The position numbers and the translations under genes were made by a program. 20,546 bases of DNA from a virus. The stretch is from positions 1 through 20,546 of IMG/VR virus record IMGVR_UViG_3300035701_000357. One strand, given 5' to 3'. Positions 2,467 to 12,871 of this stretch are shown piece after piece; the stretch's first letter is position 1; each line of letters begins with the position of its first letter. Under the pieces are notes generated by a model. The model ran no database searches, was not told the origin of the DNA, and was given only the letters and a program-made list of their open reading frames with translations.

Positions 2467-3129
2467 ATGATTAGAATATGTCACTTTGCTGATGTTCACA
2501 TCAGAAGTCTTTCTCGCCATGCAGAATATGTTCAGGTTTTTACTGATCTTGTAAAGCAATGTAAGGAGAAAAATATTGAACACATTTTTGTGGGAGGAGA
2601 TATCTTTCATACAAAAACGCAAAATCTTTCACCTGAATACATTGATTTTATGACATGGTGGTTGACAGAATTAACATCTGTTTGCGACGTACATCTTACA
2701 CTTGGAAATCATGATGGAAATTTAGTGAATGCATCTAGACAAGATGCAGTGTCACCAATTGTAAAAGCCCTTAAAAATCCAAAAGTACATCTTTACAAAA
2801 AAAGTGGAATGTATGAATTTTCACCTGGTTACGTTTGGTGTGTTTTTAGTTTGTTTGATGAAGATGGTTGGAAAGACGTTAAACCAATAGAGGGAAAAAT
2901 CAATATTGCATGTTATCATGGTCCTGTTTGGGGTGCCGCAACAGAAACTGGTTGGGAAGTTGAAGAAGGATTAAAAATTGATGACTTTCGAGCATATGAT
3001 TTTTGTTTTTTGGGTGACATACACAAATTTCAATTCTTAGACTTTCGTGATTGTGAATTTGTAATAGATGAAAATGACTTAGATCAATACCCTGGTGCTG
3101 AAATATTAGAAAGAATAAGTGATGGGTAA
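2467..3129 (+). CDS. 47: Mre11/SbcD-type nuclease, catalytic domain only (gp47 N-terminal part)
   Basis: This 220-aa ORF holds all phosphodiesterase motifs of Mre11/SbcD/T4 gp47: FADVH (D9, H11), GGDIFH (D45), LGNHD (N81, H82, D83), CYHGP (H151) and GDIHK (D184, H186). The nuclease site is therefore complete. What is missing is the C-terminal part that normally follows in the same polypeptide (T4 gp47 is about 340 aa): the ORF stops soon after GDIHKFQFL, and the expected continuation, PWIAYPGSTIQQNYG, appears at once in the next frame as the start of the gp46-like ORF. The stop TAA at 3127 overlaps the downstream ATG at 3122 by 8 nt, which would allow coupled translation. Role: with gp46, resects DNA ends for recombination-dependent replication. 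A sequencing indel or +1 frameshift could also explain the break. Confidence 0.88.
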   Translation: MIRICHFADVHIRSLSRHAEYVQVFTDLVKQCKEKNIEHIFVGGDIFHTKTQNLSPEYIDFMTWWLTELTSVCDVHLTLGNHDGNLVNASRQDAVSPIVKALKNPKVHLYKKSGMYEFSPGYVWCVFSLFDEDGWKDVKPIEGKINIACYHGPVWGAATETGWEVEEGLKIDDFRAYDFCFLGDIHKFQFLDFRDCEFVIDENDLDQYPGAEILERISDG

Positions 3130-5698
3130 GATAAAAATCAAAACCAAAAAACCATGGATTGCTTATCCTGGTAGTACAATTCAACAAAACTATGGAGAAG
3201 ATCTTTCTCATGGATATCTTGTGTGGGACATTCATGATCGTGATAATTTTGGTGTTAAATTTTATGAACTTATAAATCCTACACCTTATGTCACAATTGA
3301 TTGGACAGGTGATGTTGAATCAACGATTAAGTTTGCTAGTTCGAACTTTCCACAAAAAAGTCGTTTTCGTATTCGTAGTAAATCACAATTAGCACAAAAA
3401 GATACAACAGATTTATCGTCAAGATTATTGAGTGAATTACTTGCTTCAGATGTAACGTTTAAATATGATCAGAAGGCAGATCGTAGTATCATAACAACTG
3501 ATATTTCAACTATATTAAAGGAAGATCTTAGAAATCCTGATGTAATAATCAAATTGTTTAGCAAGTATCATCATGACAAAAACATACCTGCTGATGAGTG
3601 GCAAAAAGTTTATGATTTTGTTAAGCAATATGTTGCTAGCGTTAACGCTGAAGAAATCGTACGAAATACAAAATGGTCATTACGTCATTTGAAATTTGAT
3701 AATACGTTTACGTATGGAACTGATAATGTTATCAATTTTGATAAGTTGAATGGAATCATTGGAATTTTTGGTCCTAATCGTTCTGGAAAATCATCTATTG
3801 TTGGAACGATTATGTATGCTTTATTCAATGGAACAGATCGTGGTTCAATAAAAAATATTCACGTTGTTAACATAAGAAAACCTCATTGTTATTCACGTGC
3901 AATCATTAGTGTAAGTGGTGTAGATTATGTGATTGAACGTCAGACAACTAAAAGTGAAAATAAATATGGACAAATTAATGCTAACACTGCGTTAAACGTT
4001 TTTCGAATTGATAATGGCGAAGCGATCGATTTGGCGGGCGAACAAAGAACTGATACTGAAAAAATTATTAGAAATATAATAGGAGAACCTGAAGACTTTT
4101 TGTTAACATCGTTGTCAGCTCAGGATGAGATCAAATTGTTTATTTCATACGGATCTACAAAGCGTCGTCAAATCTTGGCTAAATTTCTAGACTTAGACAT
4201 CTTTGATAAGATGTATGACTTGGCAAGAAATGATTTAAATGCCACGAAAGCAATTATAAAAAATTATCCAGATCGTGACTGGGGTGTTTTAAACAGTGAA
4301 TTGGTTCTTAAAGTAAAAGAATGTGATGATGGAATTCAAAATCGTAGCACTTTGTTACAAGAACACCAAGAAAAACTTGATGATTTACGAATCAAGTTGG
4401 CAGACAATAAAGAGTTTATACCAGTAACAAAATTACAAGTTGATGCTCAACGTCTTCGTGTTGATCAACTTAATAAACAATTGAATAGTCAGACAACACA
4501 ACTTAATGAGATAAAAGATCAAATTGAAAAATTGACAACAAAGATTAAAAAAATTGATGTTGTTCAAAAAGAAAATAATGTTCTTGATCTCAAGATTCGC
4601 TTAACTGCATTTAGAGAACTTGAAACGTTTGTCAATCATTTACGTCATGTACATGAAATTGAAACATCAACGTTTAATTCACATGAAAAATCATTAAAAA
4701 TATTGTCTGATGTACCTTGTGGTGATCAATTTCCAACTTGTAAGTTCATTAAAGATGCTCACGTTAACAAAGAAAAAATTGATGAACAAAGAATAAAAAC
4801 GTCTACTGCTCTTGAAAGTTTGAAAAAAGCTGATGAATCGTTAGATGTTTTACGTCAAGAAGGTATTGCTGAGCAAATTGAAAAAATAGAGCAATTGAAT
4901 GATTTGTGTAATCGTTTTCAACTTGAAATATCAACAAAACACATTGAACTTGTTAAAATTGAAATAAGTTTGAACGCTACAAAACCAAATCTTGATTCAG
5001 CAATCATTCGTTTAAACGAACTTGAAAATGCATTAAAAAATGAACAAAATGCTGAAGTTGTTTCATTACGTTCAGAGATTGATAATCTTACGTTAGATAT
5101 CAAAAAATTAGATGCAGAAAAACTTGATTTTGCAACAGAGCGAGGCAAAGTTCGAACAACGATTGACAAATACAAAGAAGAAAAATTACAGCGTGATGAA
5201 AAGTTACAACACATGAAAACGTTTGAATTAGTTGTTCAAGCGTTTTCACGTAAAGGAATTCCTAGTGTTATTACAACTTCTCAATTGCCAATTATTAACG
5301 CTGAAATTGCTAGTATTTTACATGGTATAGTTGATTTTACAATAGAATTAGAGATCAATGATGATAATGATGCTACAGAAATTTATATCAATTATGGTGA
5401 TAGCAAAAGAATAATTGAATTGTGTAGTGGTATGGAAAAAATGATTGCATCAATTGCAATTAGGGTAGCACTAATCAACATATCGTCTTTGCCAAAAACC
5501 GATATGTTCATTATTGACGAAGGATTTGGTGCTCTTGATGATGCTAGTGTAGAAGCATGTAATCGTTTATTAGTTTCATTGAAACGATATTTTCGTTTGA
5601 TACTGATGATTAGTCATGTCGATGCCGTGAAAGACATCGCTGATAATGTAATAGAACTAACAAAATTTGAAAATGATGCAAAGGTTCTTTATGCTTAA
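3122..5698 (+). CDS. 46: Mre11 C-terminal region fused to Rad50/SbcC ATPase (gp46-like)
   Basis: An 858-aa chimera. Residues about 10-61 are the end of an Mre11 fold (PWIAYPGSTIQQNYGEDL and a strand ending VTIDW). About 62-195 resembles an Mre11 C-terminal/linker region. Rad50 then begins at LRHLKFDNTFTYG: Walker A GPNRSGKSS at 217-225, long coiled coils from about 390 to 700, signature LCSGME around S769-G770, Walker B FIIDEGFGALDD with D799/E800. The coiled-coil apex carries two cysteines as C533-x6-C540 (PCGDQFPTCKF) instead of the usual zinc-hook CxxC. ATG 3122 is chosen over GTG 3119; it overlaps the catalytic ORF by 8 nt. Role: ATPase clamp for the DNA-end-processing complex. The family is certain; the domain boundary between the two genes is unusual. 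Confidence 0.9.
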   Translation: MGKIKIKTKKPWIAYPGSTIQQNYGEDLSHGYLVWDIHDRDNFGVKFYELINPTPYVTIDWTGDVESTIKFASSNFPQKSRFRIRSKSQLAQKDTTDLSSRLLSELLASDVTFKYDQKADRSIITTDISTILKEDLRNPDVIIKLFSKYHHDKNIPADEWQKVYDFVKQYVASVNAEEIVRNTKWSLRHLKFDNTFTYGTDNVINFDKLNGIIGIFGPNRSGKSSIVGTIMYALFNGTDRGSIKNIHVVNIRKPHCYSRAIISVSGVDYVIERQTTKSENKYGQINANTALNVFRIDNGEAIDLAGEQRTDTEKIIRNIIGEPEDFLLTSLSAQDEIKLFISYGSTKRRQILAKFLDLDIFDKMYDLARNDLNATKAIIKNYPDRDWGVLNSELVLKVKECDDGIQNRSTLLQEHQEKLDDLRIKLADNKEFIPVTKLQVDAQRLRVDQLNKQLNSQTTQLNEIKDQIEKLTTKIKKIDVVQKENNVLDLKIRLTAFRELETFVNHLRHVHEIETSTFNSHEKSLKILSDVPCGDQFPTCKFIKDAHVNKEKIDEQRIKTSTALESLKKADESLDVLRQEGIAEQIEKIEQLNDLCNRFQLEISTKHIELVKIEISLNATKPNLDSAIIRLNELENALKNEQNAEVVSLRSEIDNLTLDIKKLDAEKLDFATERGKVRTTIDKYKEEKLQRDEKLQHMKTFELVVQAFSRKGIPSVITTSQLPIINAEIASILHGIVDFTIELEINDDNDATEIYINYGDSKRIIELCSGMEKMIASIAIRVALINISSLPKTDMFIIDEGFGALDDASVEACNRLLVSLKRYFRLILMISHVDAVKDIADNVIELTKFENDAKVLYA

Positions 5699-5999: not shown

Positions 6000-6041
6000 C
6001 TAGATCAATGCGTAAGTGTAATACAATTGATACACATAGTC

Positions 6042-7064
6042 ATGTATCGATATTTAACGCTTGATGAAATTCATCAACAAATTTTTGAGAAACATGGTAA
6101 TGTTGTTAAAATTAGAGATAAAACGTATATTAGTGTAAGTAAAAAAGCAACGTTTATTGATTGTGATTATGGCGAATGGGTAACGAAAGTTAACATTGTT
6201 TTAAGTGGTCATGGACACACAAAAAGAGGAAGACAAAAAACGTTTGACTCTATACGTTTAACGCCAAATAAAATTACACAACATATGAAATTTTTGTGGG
6301 ATGGCGTTGCAACATTTGATGAATCTACATATGTAAATCGTGAAACACCTGCTCGATTTATTGATAAAGATTATGGTGAGTGGTGGGTTAAACCGCTTCA
6401 TGTAATGGGAGGAACGGGTCGACATCCTAAGCGTGCTAGAGCAAACACGGTGTCTTCTAGAAAGCTTTCTATTGATACGATCATTGATCGTATACGAAAA
6501 GTTCATGGTGACAATATCATAATGTGTTTAGACACCTATTGTGGTACACGTAAAAAAGCAAAATTTATCGATAAACAATATGGTGAATGGTGGACATCAC
6601 CTAGCAGTGTTATGTCGGGGCGTGGTCATCCCGCTGGCAAATTAAAAAAAGCAATTATGACAATGCGTTCTTTTAAATCTGTTAAACATTGGAAAACTAA
6701 CGAAATTTGCTATCCTGCATCGGGATTTGAATACGCTGTTTTGGTTTGGTTGTGTATGAACAAATATGATTTTGGTTGGCAAATTCCGATACAATTACCA
6801 ATGTTGACTCCAAAATTAAAACGATCCGTTATTTACAATGTTGATTGTTTTATAAAAAGCGGACCATTTGCAAATACATTTATTGAGATAAAGGGTACGT
6901 GGTCACGTCGACAAAATAACGACGGAGGGTATGCAAAATGGGAATGGTTTCATGCAAATTACCCAAACTCTCAATTGTGGATGAGAAAAGATTTGATTAA
7001 GCTTAATATTATCGATGACAATAGATCCTATTTAGAAAAAGCGAGACTAAATGACAAAAATTAA
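6042..7064 (+). CDS. Probable mobile endonuclease: three DNA-binding-like repeats plus PD-(D/E)XK-type domain
   Basis: A 340-aa basic protein. Residues 1 to about 200 contain three copies of a 68-69-residue unit with the core A.FID.DYGEWW..P..V..G.GHPKR, the FID motif following alanines at residues 36, 104 and 173. Such repeats recur in phage proteins of the DUF723/endonuclease type and probably contact DNA. The C-terminal part has E230, D268 (YNVDCF) and E282-x-K284 (FIEIKGTW), a plausible nuclease site. It sits alone between recombination and packaging genes and its end overlaps the next ORF by 14 nt, as expected for a late-inserted free-standing homing-type gene. ATG 6042 is preferred over TTG 6027; neither has a clear Shine-Dalgarno. 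Nuclease activity and mobility are inferred. Confidence 0.68.
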   Translation: MYRYLTLDEIHQQIFEKHGNVVKIRDKTYISVSKKATFIDCDYGEWVTKVNIVLSGHGHTKRGRQKTFDSIRLTPNKITQHMKFLWDGVATFDESTYVNRETPARFIDKDYGEWWVKPLHVMGGTGRHPKRARANTVSSRKLSIDTIIDRIRKVHGDNIIMCLDTYCGTRKKAKFIDKQYGEWWTSPSSVMSGRGHPAGKLKKAIMTMRSFKSVKHWKTNEICYPASGFEYAVLVWLCMNKYDFGWQIPIQLPMLTPKLKRSVIYNVDCFIKSGPFANTFIEIKGTWSRRQNNDGGYAKWEWFHANYPNSQLWMRKDLIKLNIIDDNRSYLEKARLNDKN

Positions 7065-9472: not shown

Positions 9473-12400
9473 ATGGCAAAACAAGAACCAAAAAGCCTTT
9501 TTAGACGTTTAAGCGCATTATTTCGCTCTGGTCCCGTTGTTAAAAGAAAAATACGAGGGTTAGATACTACACTTGCGATTGCTGATAAAGCAAAGTCGTC
9601 AGGAACACTTCTATTTCAAAAATCCTTGTCGCCGACGTATGCGACGATAACATCAAATGCATACAATCTCTCAGAGCGAATGATGAGGTATCAAGATTTT
9701 CAAGAAATGGAATATTGTGTATCATTTCAAACACTTATACCAACTGTTGATGGATTTGTAGAGATTGGAGAGCTTGCTAGTAGGTGCCTAGAAGATCAAA
9801 ATTACACCTTCATAGTGTACTCTTTTGATCATGAAAAGAAACAAATCGTTCCTACGATTGGAAAACAAGCTCGTTTAACTAGAACTGATCATGCGTGGAA
9901 AGTAACGTTTGATAATGGTAAAGAATTAATAGGTACGTCAAATCATCGATTAATGTTGCGAGATGGAACTTATCGAGAAATTGGTGATCTGAAGCCTGGA
10001 GATGCAATGATGCCTTTTTACCGCAAAGACCTGTTTGCGAATGCTGAAGAAGGCACAAAGGGTTACTCGTGGGTCTACACGATGGATGATAGGTTCAAAG
10101 GTTGGACCAAGGAACACCAATTGATCGCTGAATGGATTGCGGGACGCAAGCTTGCTGAAGACGAGTGTGTCCATCACATCAATTTCGATAAAATAGATAA
10201 CAGGCCAGAAAATCTGCGGATCATGACGAATTCTGACCACAATTCGTACCATGCCGCGATCAATAATGGCATGAAGTGGGCACCTGAGAATCATGAATGG
10301 ATCGAGCAGTTCAAGAAGAACCATGCAACGTGGATGCGAGATAATGCCCCGACCGCTCGACGCGACGTGACATTTGGTCGTATTTTAGAGATTAGTGAGT
10401 GTTTTGATTTTGATTTGATTTCAATATGTCGAACACTTGATGTTGATCGTAACGTTATCTATTCTAGGCTCGCAGATCATGGATTTGCAAACTATGATAG
10501 CTTTGTACAAGCGTATCGTCAAGGTGCTGAACTATTAGAAAATAAGAGATCTCTTCGTACTAGTGATTTATCAATAGAAAAAATCTTAGCCTTGATCGAA
10601 GAGCCAGATACAAAGCAATCATTGTGCATTAAATTGGGTTGTACTGTAAATGTTTTCAACAAATTCCTAGATAGAAAATTAGTGAAAAGTTGGATTCAGT
10701 TACGAACTGAATTAGGTTGGGAGCCGGCGACATTTCGTTCAGGCGGGTGCCCTAAGGGAAGCAATGGCAACGACCTAACGTTCAAACAGATTTGCGATGC
10801 TTACACCCCTGGTCTTACGCTACCTCGACTCGCAGATACGCTGGGCGTCAACAAGAATACAATCATCTCTCGGCTCGCGCAGCAAGGCCATGAGCGCTAT
10901 ACAGAGTTCCAGACATCTTACGCTAATTGCAAGGTCGTTTCAGTCGAGTACGTTGGAGTGTTGCCCCTCTACGATCTCACCGTTGATGGTTATAAGAACT
11001 TTGCAACTGACAGTGTTATCTCACACAACACACCTGAGCTTGCGGCAGCGTTAGACATATATGCAGATGAAACATGTGCGCAAGATGAAAAAGGGCGAAT
11101 TCTTCATGTTTATTCTGAAAATGAAAAGATCAAAGAAAACTTAGAAGATCTTTTTTATAACGTATTGAACGTAGAATTTAATCTTAGATCCTGGGCAAGA
11201 AATCTGTGTAAGTACGGTGATTTCTTTCTTTATAATGACGTTTCACCAACATATGGTGTTGTGAATTCATTTCCAATACCTGTTAATGAAATAGAGCGTG
11301 AAGAAAATTATGATCGTGATGATCCTTTTGCTGTTCGTTATCGGTGGGTAACACTAGGAAATCGTACACTTGAAAATTGGGAAGTAACACATTTTAGACT
11401 TCTTGGCAATGACATGTTCTTGCCATATGGTTCTTCCATCATTGAACCTGCTAGACGAATCTGGAGACAATTGATTTTGATCGAAGACGCGATGTTAGTT
11501 TATCGTGTTGTAAGAGCACCTGAACGTAGAGTTTTTTATGTTGATGTTGCAAACGTACCACCAGAAAATGTACCTATGTACATAGAAGAACAAAGAAAAA
11601 ATCTCAGAACAAACCAGGTTGTAGATAGTACCACTGGAAGAGTTGACTTGCGTTATAACCCACTTAGCGTTGACGAAGACTACTTTATTCCTGTCAGAGG
11701 AAATGATTCCGGCACGCGTATTGAAACTCTCGCAGGTGGAAATAACACAGCAGCCGTCGAGGACGTTGCGTATATTCAAAAGAAGTTGTTTGCTGCATTA
11801 AAGATTCCAAGAGCATATCTTGGATACGATGAAATGTTATCTTCAAAGGCGACTCTTGCGCAGGAAGATATTCGATTTTCACGAACAATTGCTGTCATTC
11901 AAAAAACAATTATTGCTGAATTAAACAAGCTTGCAATTATTCATTTGTATGCTCACGGATTTGACAATGAAGATCTTCAAAATTTTACATTAAGACTTTC
12001 TAATCCTTCTACTGTTGCACAACAACAAAAACTTGAATTATGGCGTGCAAAGTTTGAAATTGGAGGCTCTTTGCCAGAAGGAATGGGAAGTGCTGAATTT
12101 GTTCAACAAGAGATCTGGGGTCTTAGCATAGAAGAGATTGAAAAGATCAACGCACAAAGAATGAAGGAAAAGGTTCAGAACGCTAAGATTGAAGCAGCGG
12201 CTGCTGGTACAACCGGCGACGAAGGTGGAGATGATATTGGTGGAGGTGGAGATGATTTATTTGGAGGCGGCGGAGGGGAAGAGGAAGCCGCTGGAAATGA
12301 GGAACCAGGTGGTGAAATACCTCCTGAAGAAAATGCAGGTGAAGAACCTGAAGAAGAAAAATACAATAAAGAATTATTGACATCTATTGATGATAATGAA

Positions 12401-12871
12401 GATGATGAAGAATTTAGTCTTAAAATGTCGTCAATGAATGATTCTGAAAAACCCGTGAAAGTTCAACCTCAATTAAAACGAGCTTTATATAATAACTCTC
12501 GTCATAGAACACACGGAGCTTCAAAAACACATATGCCTGATTTTGTTAAGATGACTGGTGTTGATAGTCGTTCAATGAAAGATCCAACTGATTCTGATTT
12601 TATTAAGTCAGTTGTTTCAAATCCATTTGGTGAATCTACGTCTCGTGTTAAGTCTCCATTTTCAGGATTATCACCTGATGTTTGGTCTTCGCTTAAACAC
12701 ATGCAGGCATCATTTAAGAATGATATGAAAACAACCTCTCAAGGTTTTTCATCTGGTGTTTTAACAGAAAGTGATGACTCTATTGAATTAAACGTTAACA
12801 ATGAAGATCTTCCTGATGAAGATGAAGTACTTATCATTGAGGGAAGCGATAATAGTGTTGAGGAAGATTGA
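9473..12871 (+). CDS. 20: Portal protein (gp20-like) interrupted by an in-frame intein
   Basis: A 1132-aa ORF: N-extein 1-81, intein 82-519, C-extein 520-1132. Joined, the exteins give a 694-aa portal. Family marks in the C-extein include LRSWARNLCKYGDFF, the clip/wing region, and LSSKATLAQEDIRFSRTI, typical of T4 gp20. After about residue 905 comes a Gly/Glu-rich low-complexity linker (IGGGGDDLFGGGGG) and a roughly 200-residue charged tail absent from T4 gp20 (524 aa). The portal is the dodecameric ring at one vertex that nucleates head assembly and is the channel for DNA. AGAGGGG lies 7 nt before the ATG, a strong Shine-Dalgarno. Because head assembly needs the portal, intein splicing should be essential for this phage. 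Confidence 0.95.
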   Translation: MAKQEPKSLFRRLSALFRSGPVVKRKIRGLDTTLAIADKAKSSGTLLFQKSLSPTYATITSNAYNLSERMMRYQDFQEMEYCVSFQTLIPTVDGFVEIGELASRCLEDQNYTFIVYSFDHEKKQIVPTIGKQARLTRTDHAWKVTFDNGKELIGTSNHRLMLRDGTYREIGDLKPGDAMMPFYRKDLFANAEEGTKGYSWVYTMDDRFKGWTKEHQLIAEWIAGRKLAEDECVHHINFDKIDNRPENLRIMTNSDHNSYHAAINNGMKWAPENHEWIEQFKKNHATWMRDNAPTARRDVTFGRILEISECFDFDLISICRTLDVDRNVIYSRLADHGFANYDSFVQAYRQGAELLENKRSLRTSDLSIEKILALIEEPDTKQSLCIKLGCTVNVFNKFLDRKLVKSWIQLRTELGWEPATFRSGGCPKGSNGNDLTFKQICDAYTPGLTLPRLADTLGVNKNTIISRLAQQGHERYTEFQTSYANCKVVSVEYVGVLPLYDLTVDGYKNFATDSVISHNTPELAAALDIYADETCAQDEKGRILHVYSENEKIKENLEDLFYNVLNVEFNLRSWARNLCKYGDFFLYNDVSPTYGVVNSFPIPVNEIEREENYDRDDPFAVRYRWVTLGNRTLENWEVTHFRLLGNDMFLPYGSSIIEPARRIWRQLILIEDAMLVYRVVRAPERRVFYVDVANVPPENVPMYIEEQRKNLRTNQVVDSTTGRVDLRYNPLSVDEDYFIPVRGNDSGTRIETLAGGNNTAAVEDVAYIQKKLFAALKIPRAYLGYDEMLSSKATLAQEDIRFSRTIAVIQKTIIAELNKLAIIHLYAHGFDNEDLQNFTLRLSNPSTVAQQQKLELWRAKFEIGGSLPEGMGSAEFVQQEIWGLSIEEIEKINAQRMKEKVQNAKIEAAAAGTTGDEGGDDIGGGGDDLFGGGGGEEEAAGNEEPGGEIPPEENAGEEPEEEKYNKELLTSIDDNEDDEEFSLKMSSMNDSEKPVKVQPQLKRALYNNSRHRTHGASKTHMPDFVKMTGVDSRSMKDPTDSDFIKSVVSNPFGESTSRVKSPFSGLSPDVWSSLKHMQASFKNDMKTTSQGFSSGVLTESDDSIELNVNNEDLPDEDEVLIIEGSDNSVEED
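9716..11029 (+). mobile_element. Intein with HNH homing endonuclease, inserted in the portal gene
   Basis: A 438-aa class-1-type intein. Block A: C82 at the N-junction (Y/CVSFQTLIPT). Block B: GTSNHRLM at 154-161 with the TxxH histidine H158. HNH domain: ECVHHINFDKIDNRPENL with H234/H235, then a conserved IMTNSDHNSYH. C-terminal block F: LPLYDLTVDGYKNFATDS. Block G: VISHN with terminal His-Asn, followed by Thr as the +1 nucleophile (SHN/TPEL). All residues needed for splicing are present. Between the HNH and block F are helix-turn-helix-like modules. GC content jumps within the element: about 40% at the start, 42-60% over the HNH part, 27-38% over 10380-10680, about 52% over 10740-10980. Confidence 0.95.
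10370..10927 (+). repeat. Repeated helix-turn-helix-like modules inside the intein
   Basis: The first (10370 to about 10531) and last (10778 to about 10927) modules are clearly related in protein sequence: compare LDVDRNVIYSRLADHG with LGVNKNTIISRLAQQG, each followed by a Y..F...Y end. A weaker middle module (about 10562-10710) has the pattern LCIKLGCTVNVFNKFLDRK. Each looks like a small DNA-binding helix-turn-helix, probably giving target recognition to the HNH nuclease. The first and last copies differ sharply in base composition (about 27-38% against 52% GC). Confidence 0.6.

Follow-up and report, generated by a model that had tools for sequence, protein, structure and literature searches.

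An Mre11 gene broken in two, with the C-terminal part of the nuclease carried on the Rad50 chain, lies in IMG/VR virus record IMGVR_UViG_3300035701_000357, of which the 20,546 bases analysed, called the window below, also encode a T4-type portal protein. Most probably, a homing endonuclease gene (HEG) split the gene of an Mre11-Rad50 fusion protein, the break was neutralised by assembly tails borne on the element itself, and the window holds a relic of this event from which the HEG is gone.

Split and unsplit Mre11-Rad50 genes

The two halves are encoded by adjacent open reading frames (ORFs) with these features:

2467..3129, + strand: first half, the Mre11 catalytic (metallophosphoesterase) domain, 220 residues (Pfam PF00149 Metallophos, E 1.2e-11; PHROG SbcD-like)
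3049..3126, + strand: acidic tail of the first half, DCEFVIDENDLDQYPGAEILERISDG, from an alignment of 39 distinct tails; not in unsplit homologues
3122..3129, + strand: start/stop overlap of the two halves, 8 nucleotides, ATGGGTAA, from the sequence
3122..3148, + strand: basic leader of the second half, MGKIKIKTK, with predicted strand pairing to the tail
3122..5698, + strand: second half, the Mre11 C-terminal (capping and Rad50-binding) region, then the Rad50 ATPase (PF13476, residues 191-476; phrog_77 SbcC-like, E 1.6e-53)
5691..5698, + strand: overlap of the second half with the next gene, 8 nucleotides, ATGCTTAA, from the sequence

The first chain breaks after GDIH, the last metal-binding motif of Mre11, and therefore retains all five phosphoesterase motifs (DVH, GGDIFH, GNHD, YHG and GDIH), which are invariant columns in Mre11 alignments. 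The second ORF, in the +1 frame relative to the first, encodes 858 residues counted from the ATG at 3122 (a GTG at 3119 is also in frame), and its Rad50 part is complete, with AAA_23/SMC ATPase halves flanking a coiled coil (PF13476, phrog_77). In place of the usual CxxC, the presumed zinc hook of Rad50 (4717-4743) has two cysteines six residues apart in the sequence PCGDQFPTCKF; the corresponding stretch of locus L045 is PCGSEYSHCKF. Unsplit homologues lack the sequence that ends the first chain and the sequence that opens the second, both of which are additions. An earlier note on this DNA gave the ORF coordinates and both 8-nucleotide overlaps exactly, and its central claim, that Mre11 is broken in two with its C-terminal part on the Rad50 chain, is confirmed by the ORFs and by the Pfam and PHROG matches. 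Its statement that the catalytic part ends at 3129 stands as far as the motifs are concerned, all of them being in the first chain, but the end of that chain is the extra tail.

Searches of viral contigs with each half and with a distant alignment as queries return two kinds of locus, unsplit and split, nearly all of them on metagenomic contigs and with near-copies included in the row counts. The majority of relatives have a single ORF of about 1020-1100 residues, in which the loop between the GDIHKxQxLx and Y-P-G-S/T motifs measures 4-14 residues (mean 8.9 in 133 locus rows; for example, GDIHKRQFLGYRDGKPWIGYPGT); Microcystis phage Mel-JY01 also carries such an unsplit fusion. The second half (3122..5698) recovers 42 related loci, and split genes amount to 43 rows with 39 distinct tails. 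Their first half ends in a tail of approximately 20-29 residues, typically VEIEIDE-DL-KYPGAEIIE, and in their second half PWIAYPGS is preceded by an N-terminal leader, for instance MGKKIKIKVKK. None of the 133 unsplit rows has a long insert and none of the 43 split rows lacks tail and leader, so that the association of the split with both additions is complete, with 0 exceptions. No relative was found among genome contigs, and the Mre11 halves of L045 and L198 as queries returned no further relatives.

About 40 related contigs share the split point of the window. Contig L001, 99.7% identical to the window over 5.7 kb with 3 mismatches and one gap of its own, encodes both split-gene proteins with 100% identity. 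The proposal of the earlier note that the halves are real, coupled genes is upheld, and its alternative of an indel error is rejected by L001 and by the approximately 40 diverged contigs split at the same point. Both states that it suggested looking for in related phages, the same split and a continuous fusion, were found, and neither of the outcomes that it named as refuting, a one-base error or relatives that all have ordinary, separate gp47 and gp46 genes, came about. The supposition that half of Mre11 had been newly joined to Rad50 fails, since most relatives encode one continuous Mre11-Rad50 protein; the ancestral state is most likely a single-gene fusion of known kind.

Homing endonuclease genes at the break

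In L006 and L018/L037, a gene of approximately 290-300 residues lies exactly between the halves, its last codons overlapping the start of the second half, with a clear match to PHROG homing-endonuclease families and weak matches to Vsr/DUF559/MTES_1575 nucleases. The very distant L045 has a nuclease at the same place that is 39% identical, L271 has a further HEG between the halves, and the gap in LR756508 (L198), a 484-kb phage record, holds a different, TnsA-like nuclease. The HEGs in the gap are mostly EDxHD/Vsr-like and are free-standing; an Rfam search of L018, L006, L198 and L271 for introns gave no match. No intact nuclease is present in L139/L140, L141 and L009, which keep both nuclease ends with 89-95% identity to L018 and differ in the points at which these are joined (178|935, 130|976 and 115|998, in positions of the L018 junction fragment). 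The gap gene of L207, L209-L214 and L220 resembles, by a weak assignment, a glycosyltransferase and not an endonuclease; in L207 it lies at 4650-5594 and would be unusual cargo at a homing site. The other split loci have just a start-stop overlap or a short spacer between the halves, and this includes the window, where the ORFs overlap with no HEG between them.

On a tree of the Rad50 part only, with the first 60 residues past the junction excluded, split and unsplit genes interleave with 11 changes, at least 9 of which are forced by supported branches. A single clade of split genes is rejected by the approximately unbiased (AU) test (p = 4.6e-5; p = 2e-37 for seven split genes in a large clade), and one ancient fission for all split genes is ruled out by this test. 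Unsplit sisters of split genes exist: split L141 is sister to unsplit L181, and split L139 groups with unsplit L184 and L194. The 36 nucleotides on each side of the junction in L139 and L141, which lie in sequence common to all alleles, are 91-97% identical to those of split L018 and only 61-66% identical to those of the unsplit sisters L184 and L181. Beyond approximately 40-100 nucleotides from the junction, the unsplit sister is closer again; of the comparison windows taken across 2.4 kb of the right-hand arm, just 2 of 200 and 4 of 199 are nearer to the L018 type. Mosaic junctions of this form are what co-conversion in homing leaves; therefore, tail, nuclease and leader move together.

Endonuclease-like sequences also occur in other genes of the window. 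An intein-like insert that carries an HNH endonuclease motif (PF14890, E 2.8e-13; PF13392) interrupts the T4-type portal protein gene (9473-12871) and is a second homing element in the same phage. The ORF at 6027-7064 has three A-x-F-I-D-x-x-Y-G-E-W repeats, a nuclease-like end and matches to PHROGs named HNH endonuclease or endonuclease, and is possibly another free-standing homing endonuclease near the split gene. A TnsA-like endonuclease ORF at 413-805 (PF08722, E 8e-15), which also matches PHROGs named head closure, is of the same type as the gene within the split of LR756508.

Tails, reassembly and the origin of the split

In all 43 split rows the leader has a positive charge (mean +4.1); the tail strand has a negative one in 35 of the 43 (mean -3.2), the exceptions being L207-type loci. 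A read-through of the window, with the frames joined solely to model both halves together, is predicted by AlphaFold with a mean predicted local distance difference test (pLDDT) score of 90.9 and a predicted template modelling score (pTM) of 0.83. The Mre11 fold, including the region past GDIH, is present in this model of one joined chain, which matches the structures of E. coli SbcD and T. maritima Mre11 with E down to 3e-12; a PDB sequence search with the same chain gave no match. The model contains hairpin strands at 189-201/221-233, a helix at 202-207 and a strand at 212-216, all with pLDDT of 93-97, and the break is located between the last two strands of this zone (212-216 and 221-233). 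The AlphaFold model of unsplit L017 has a short hairpin only (190-196/202-208). Most likely, the acidic strand of the tail and the basic strand of the leader would pair into an extended beta hairpin across separate chains. Tail codons in split clades have a ratio of nonsynonymous to synonymous change (pN/pS) of 0.24-0.39, and the tails are under purifying selection; in the HEG-free clades, synonymous sites are close to saturated. A profile hidden Markov model of the tail, compared with the halves of Aeh1 NrdA and with all ORFs collected, found no significant match outside Mre11; therefore, the suspected connection with proteins of L064 and L067, which contain a similar E-D-[IL]-x-x-Y-L-x-x-G-W motif, is only a lead. 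A promoter scan gave matches at chance level.

Fission by an HEG would proceed as follows. An ancestral gene for a single-chain Mre11-Rad50 fusion would be invaded by a free-standing HEG immediately downstream of the sequence coding for GDIH, the last metal-binding motif of Mre11; the presumed target of the element is the highly conserved coding sequence around this motif. The element would supply both a coding tail that closes the upstream half and a start codon and leader for the downstream half, and would therefore leave two ORFs without an intron or intein; by cleaving unsplit alleles it would spread by homing. Tail and leader strands would reassemble Mre11 in trans, and because complementary strands would let the two proteins fold together, the phage is proposed to keep Mre11-Rad50 function; selection on the tails and the model suggest, indirectly, that the halves may reassemble into an active enzyme. 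The HEG would later be deleted, and the split and both tails would remain, leaving overlapping, coupled halves. The ancestor of the window locus itself presumably carried the HEG, and the locus is probably an HEG-free relic whose overlapping halves are translationally coupled. The best reading of the family is that the split is recurrent, and that it is stable after loss of the nuclease. With somewhat better than even confidence, tail and leader can be regarded as a portable reassembly cassette on a mobile element: each invasion would break the gene and at once deliver complementary beta strands by which the protein is rebuilt in trans, making fission neutral without splicing, and the cassette would outlive the nuclease and become a fixed part of Mre11-Rad50.

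Several points weigh against this account. The tree does not tell gains of the split from losses. The window is without clear HEG sequence, so that its HEG past is deduced from relatives; a 52-nucleotide match of the window to the 3' end of the L018 HEG overlaps coding sequence and proves little. The clade of the window is HEG-free throughout, and another origin of the split is possible there. L207-type loci have a non-HEG gap gene and uncharged tail strands, and the input to AlphaFold was a single joined chain, a condition that makes adjacent strands more prone to pair. The uniformly split and HEG-free state of the window's clade, together with the non-HEG gap gene of L207-type loci, would fit an alternative in which the long hairpin is an ancestral loop of one lineage, the gene broke at its tip by ordinary mutation, and HEGs settled in the gap later; for split gene 43 of Aeromonas phages, a doubt of this kind is voiced in PMC2988022. 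A long loop is found in 0 of 133 unsplit rows, split genes are polyphyletic, and in L139 and L141 the tail, the HEG remnant and the leader arrived together with co-converted flanks, all of which make this alternative unlikely.

Less probable still is a programmed +1 ribosomal frameshift that joins the ORFs into one Mre11-Rad50 protein of approximately 1078 residues (approximately 1070 in the earlier note, which raised it). In its favour, reading through the junction in the window yields an unbroken protein with a confidently predicted fold, and the majority of homologues consist of a single chain, but frameshifting is disfavoured because the frame of the second half relative to the first varies (all three frames occur, in 7/7/15 rows of short-gap split relatives) and because several relatives have in-frame stops and spacers of 57-182 nucleotides between the halves; moreover, each half has its own start and stop, and the tail of the first half is conserved right to its stop. 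A decaying pseudogene or an assembly error might be suspected from the HEG debris between the halves in L139, L141 and L009, but is very improbable given that both ORFs and the catalytic motifs are intact in approximately 40 contigs, that L001 repeats the junction, that tail codons are under purifying selection and that phages with only about 33% identity in their Mre11 halves still share the tail motif.

Rejoining of the halves by splicing, through a group I or II intron or a split intein, is scarcely credible, even though phage genes fractured in two, with split inteins and an intervening Vsr-like HEG, reportedly described by Dassa in 2009 (a study cited in PMC10448857), are a precedent: introns have no Rfam match in the four loci searched, the window has no room for an intron or intein because its ORFs overlap, and a split-intein fractured gene is ruled out by the lengths of tail (approximately 20-29 residues) and leader (approximately 9 residues), far too short for intein halves, and by the lack of a Pfam intein match in the halves of the window. 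The fractured genes resemble the present case in having a similar nuclease class between two halves of a phage gene, and differ in that there are no intein halves here and reassembly would be non-covalent.

Comparison with known systems

Single-chain Mre11/Rad50 fusions have already been described in Mimivirus (R555), Bacillus phage 0305phi8-36 and others (PMC3175470). The unsplit relatives are of the same kind, Mre11 preceding Rad50 in the chain; fission and homing elements go unmentioned in that paper, whereas here the cut is within the Mre11 part. A search of the open-licence full-text literature for homing endonucleases together with Rad50 or SbcD/SbcC did not turn up a report of such a case. 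T4 genes 39/60 (mobA) and gene 43 of Aeromonas phage 25 (seg-like) are likewise replication genes in two HEG-associated polypeptides that need reassembly, but conserved complementary tails or movement of a tail module are not described for them in the available text of PMC2988022.

The closest counterpart is nrdA-a/mobE/nrdA-b of Aeromonas phage Aeh1, in which a free-standing HEG also cuts a gene into two ORFs without an intron or intein, and in which both halves likewise have extra tails at the break, one forming an acidic and one a basic strand. Aeh1 NrdA split by mobE is reported to retain function (Friedrich 2007, as cited in PMC5374615 and PMC8351571), and interaction domains derived from the element bring its halves together, according to the title of Crona 2011 as given in PMC3267527. 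The gene and the class of HEG (HNH MobE) are different, the charge order of the tails is reversed, and the tail model detects no sequence relation, so that the likeness is one of architecture only. Aeh1 NrdA alone had suggested that tails derived from mobile elements might quite generally neutralise the breakage of genes by such DNA. In the Mre11-Rad50 family another gene is broken at one and the same point in many phages, and every stage is represented, from unsplit genes through those with an HEG and those with a partly deleted HEG to those that have lost it; the idea therefore becomes directly testable, by comparison and by simple co-expression. The family also shows how a boundary between genes can arise and persist within a protein domain, and offers natural split-protein pairs with strands of opposite charge. 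Compared with Aeh1 NrdA, the Mre11 split recurs across lineages, its tail module moves with co-conversion and it persists past loss of the HEG; the Mre11-Rad50 case is new relative to that precedent and much richer.
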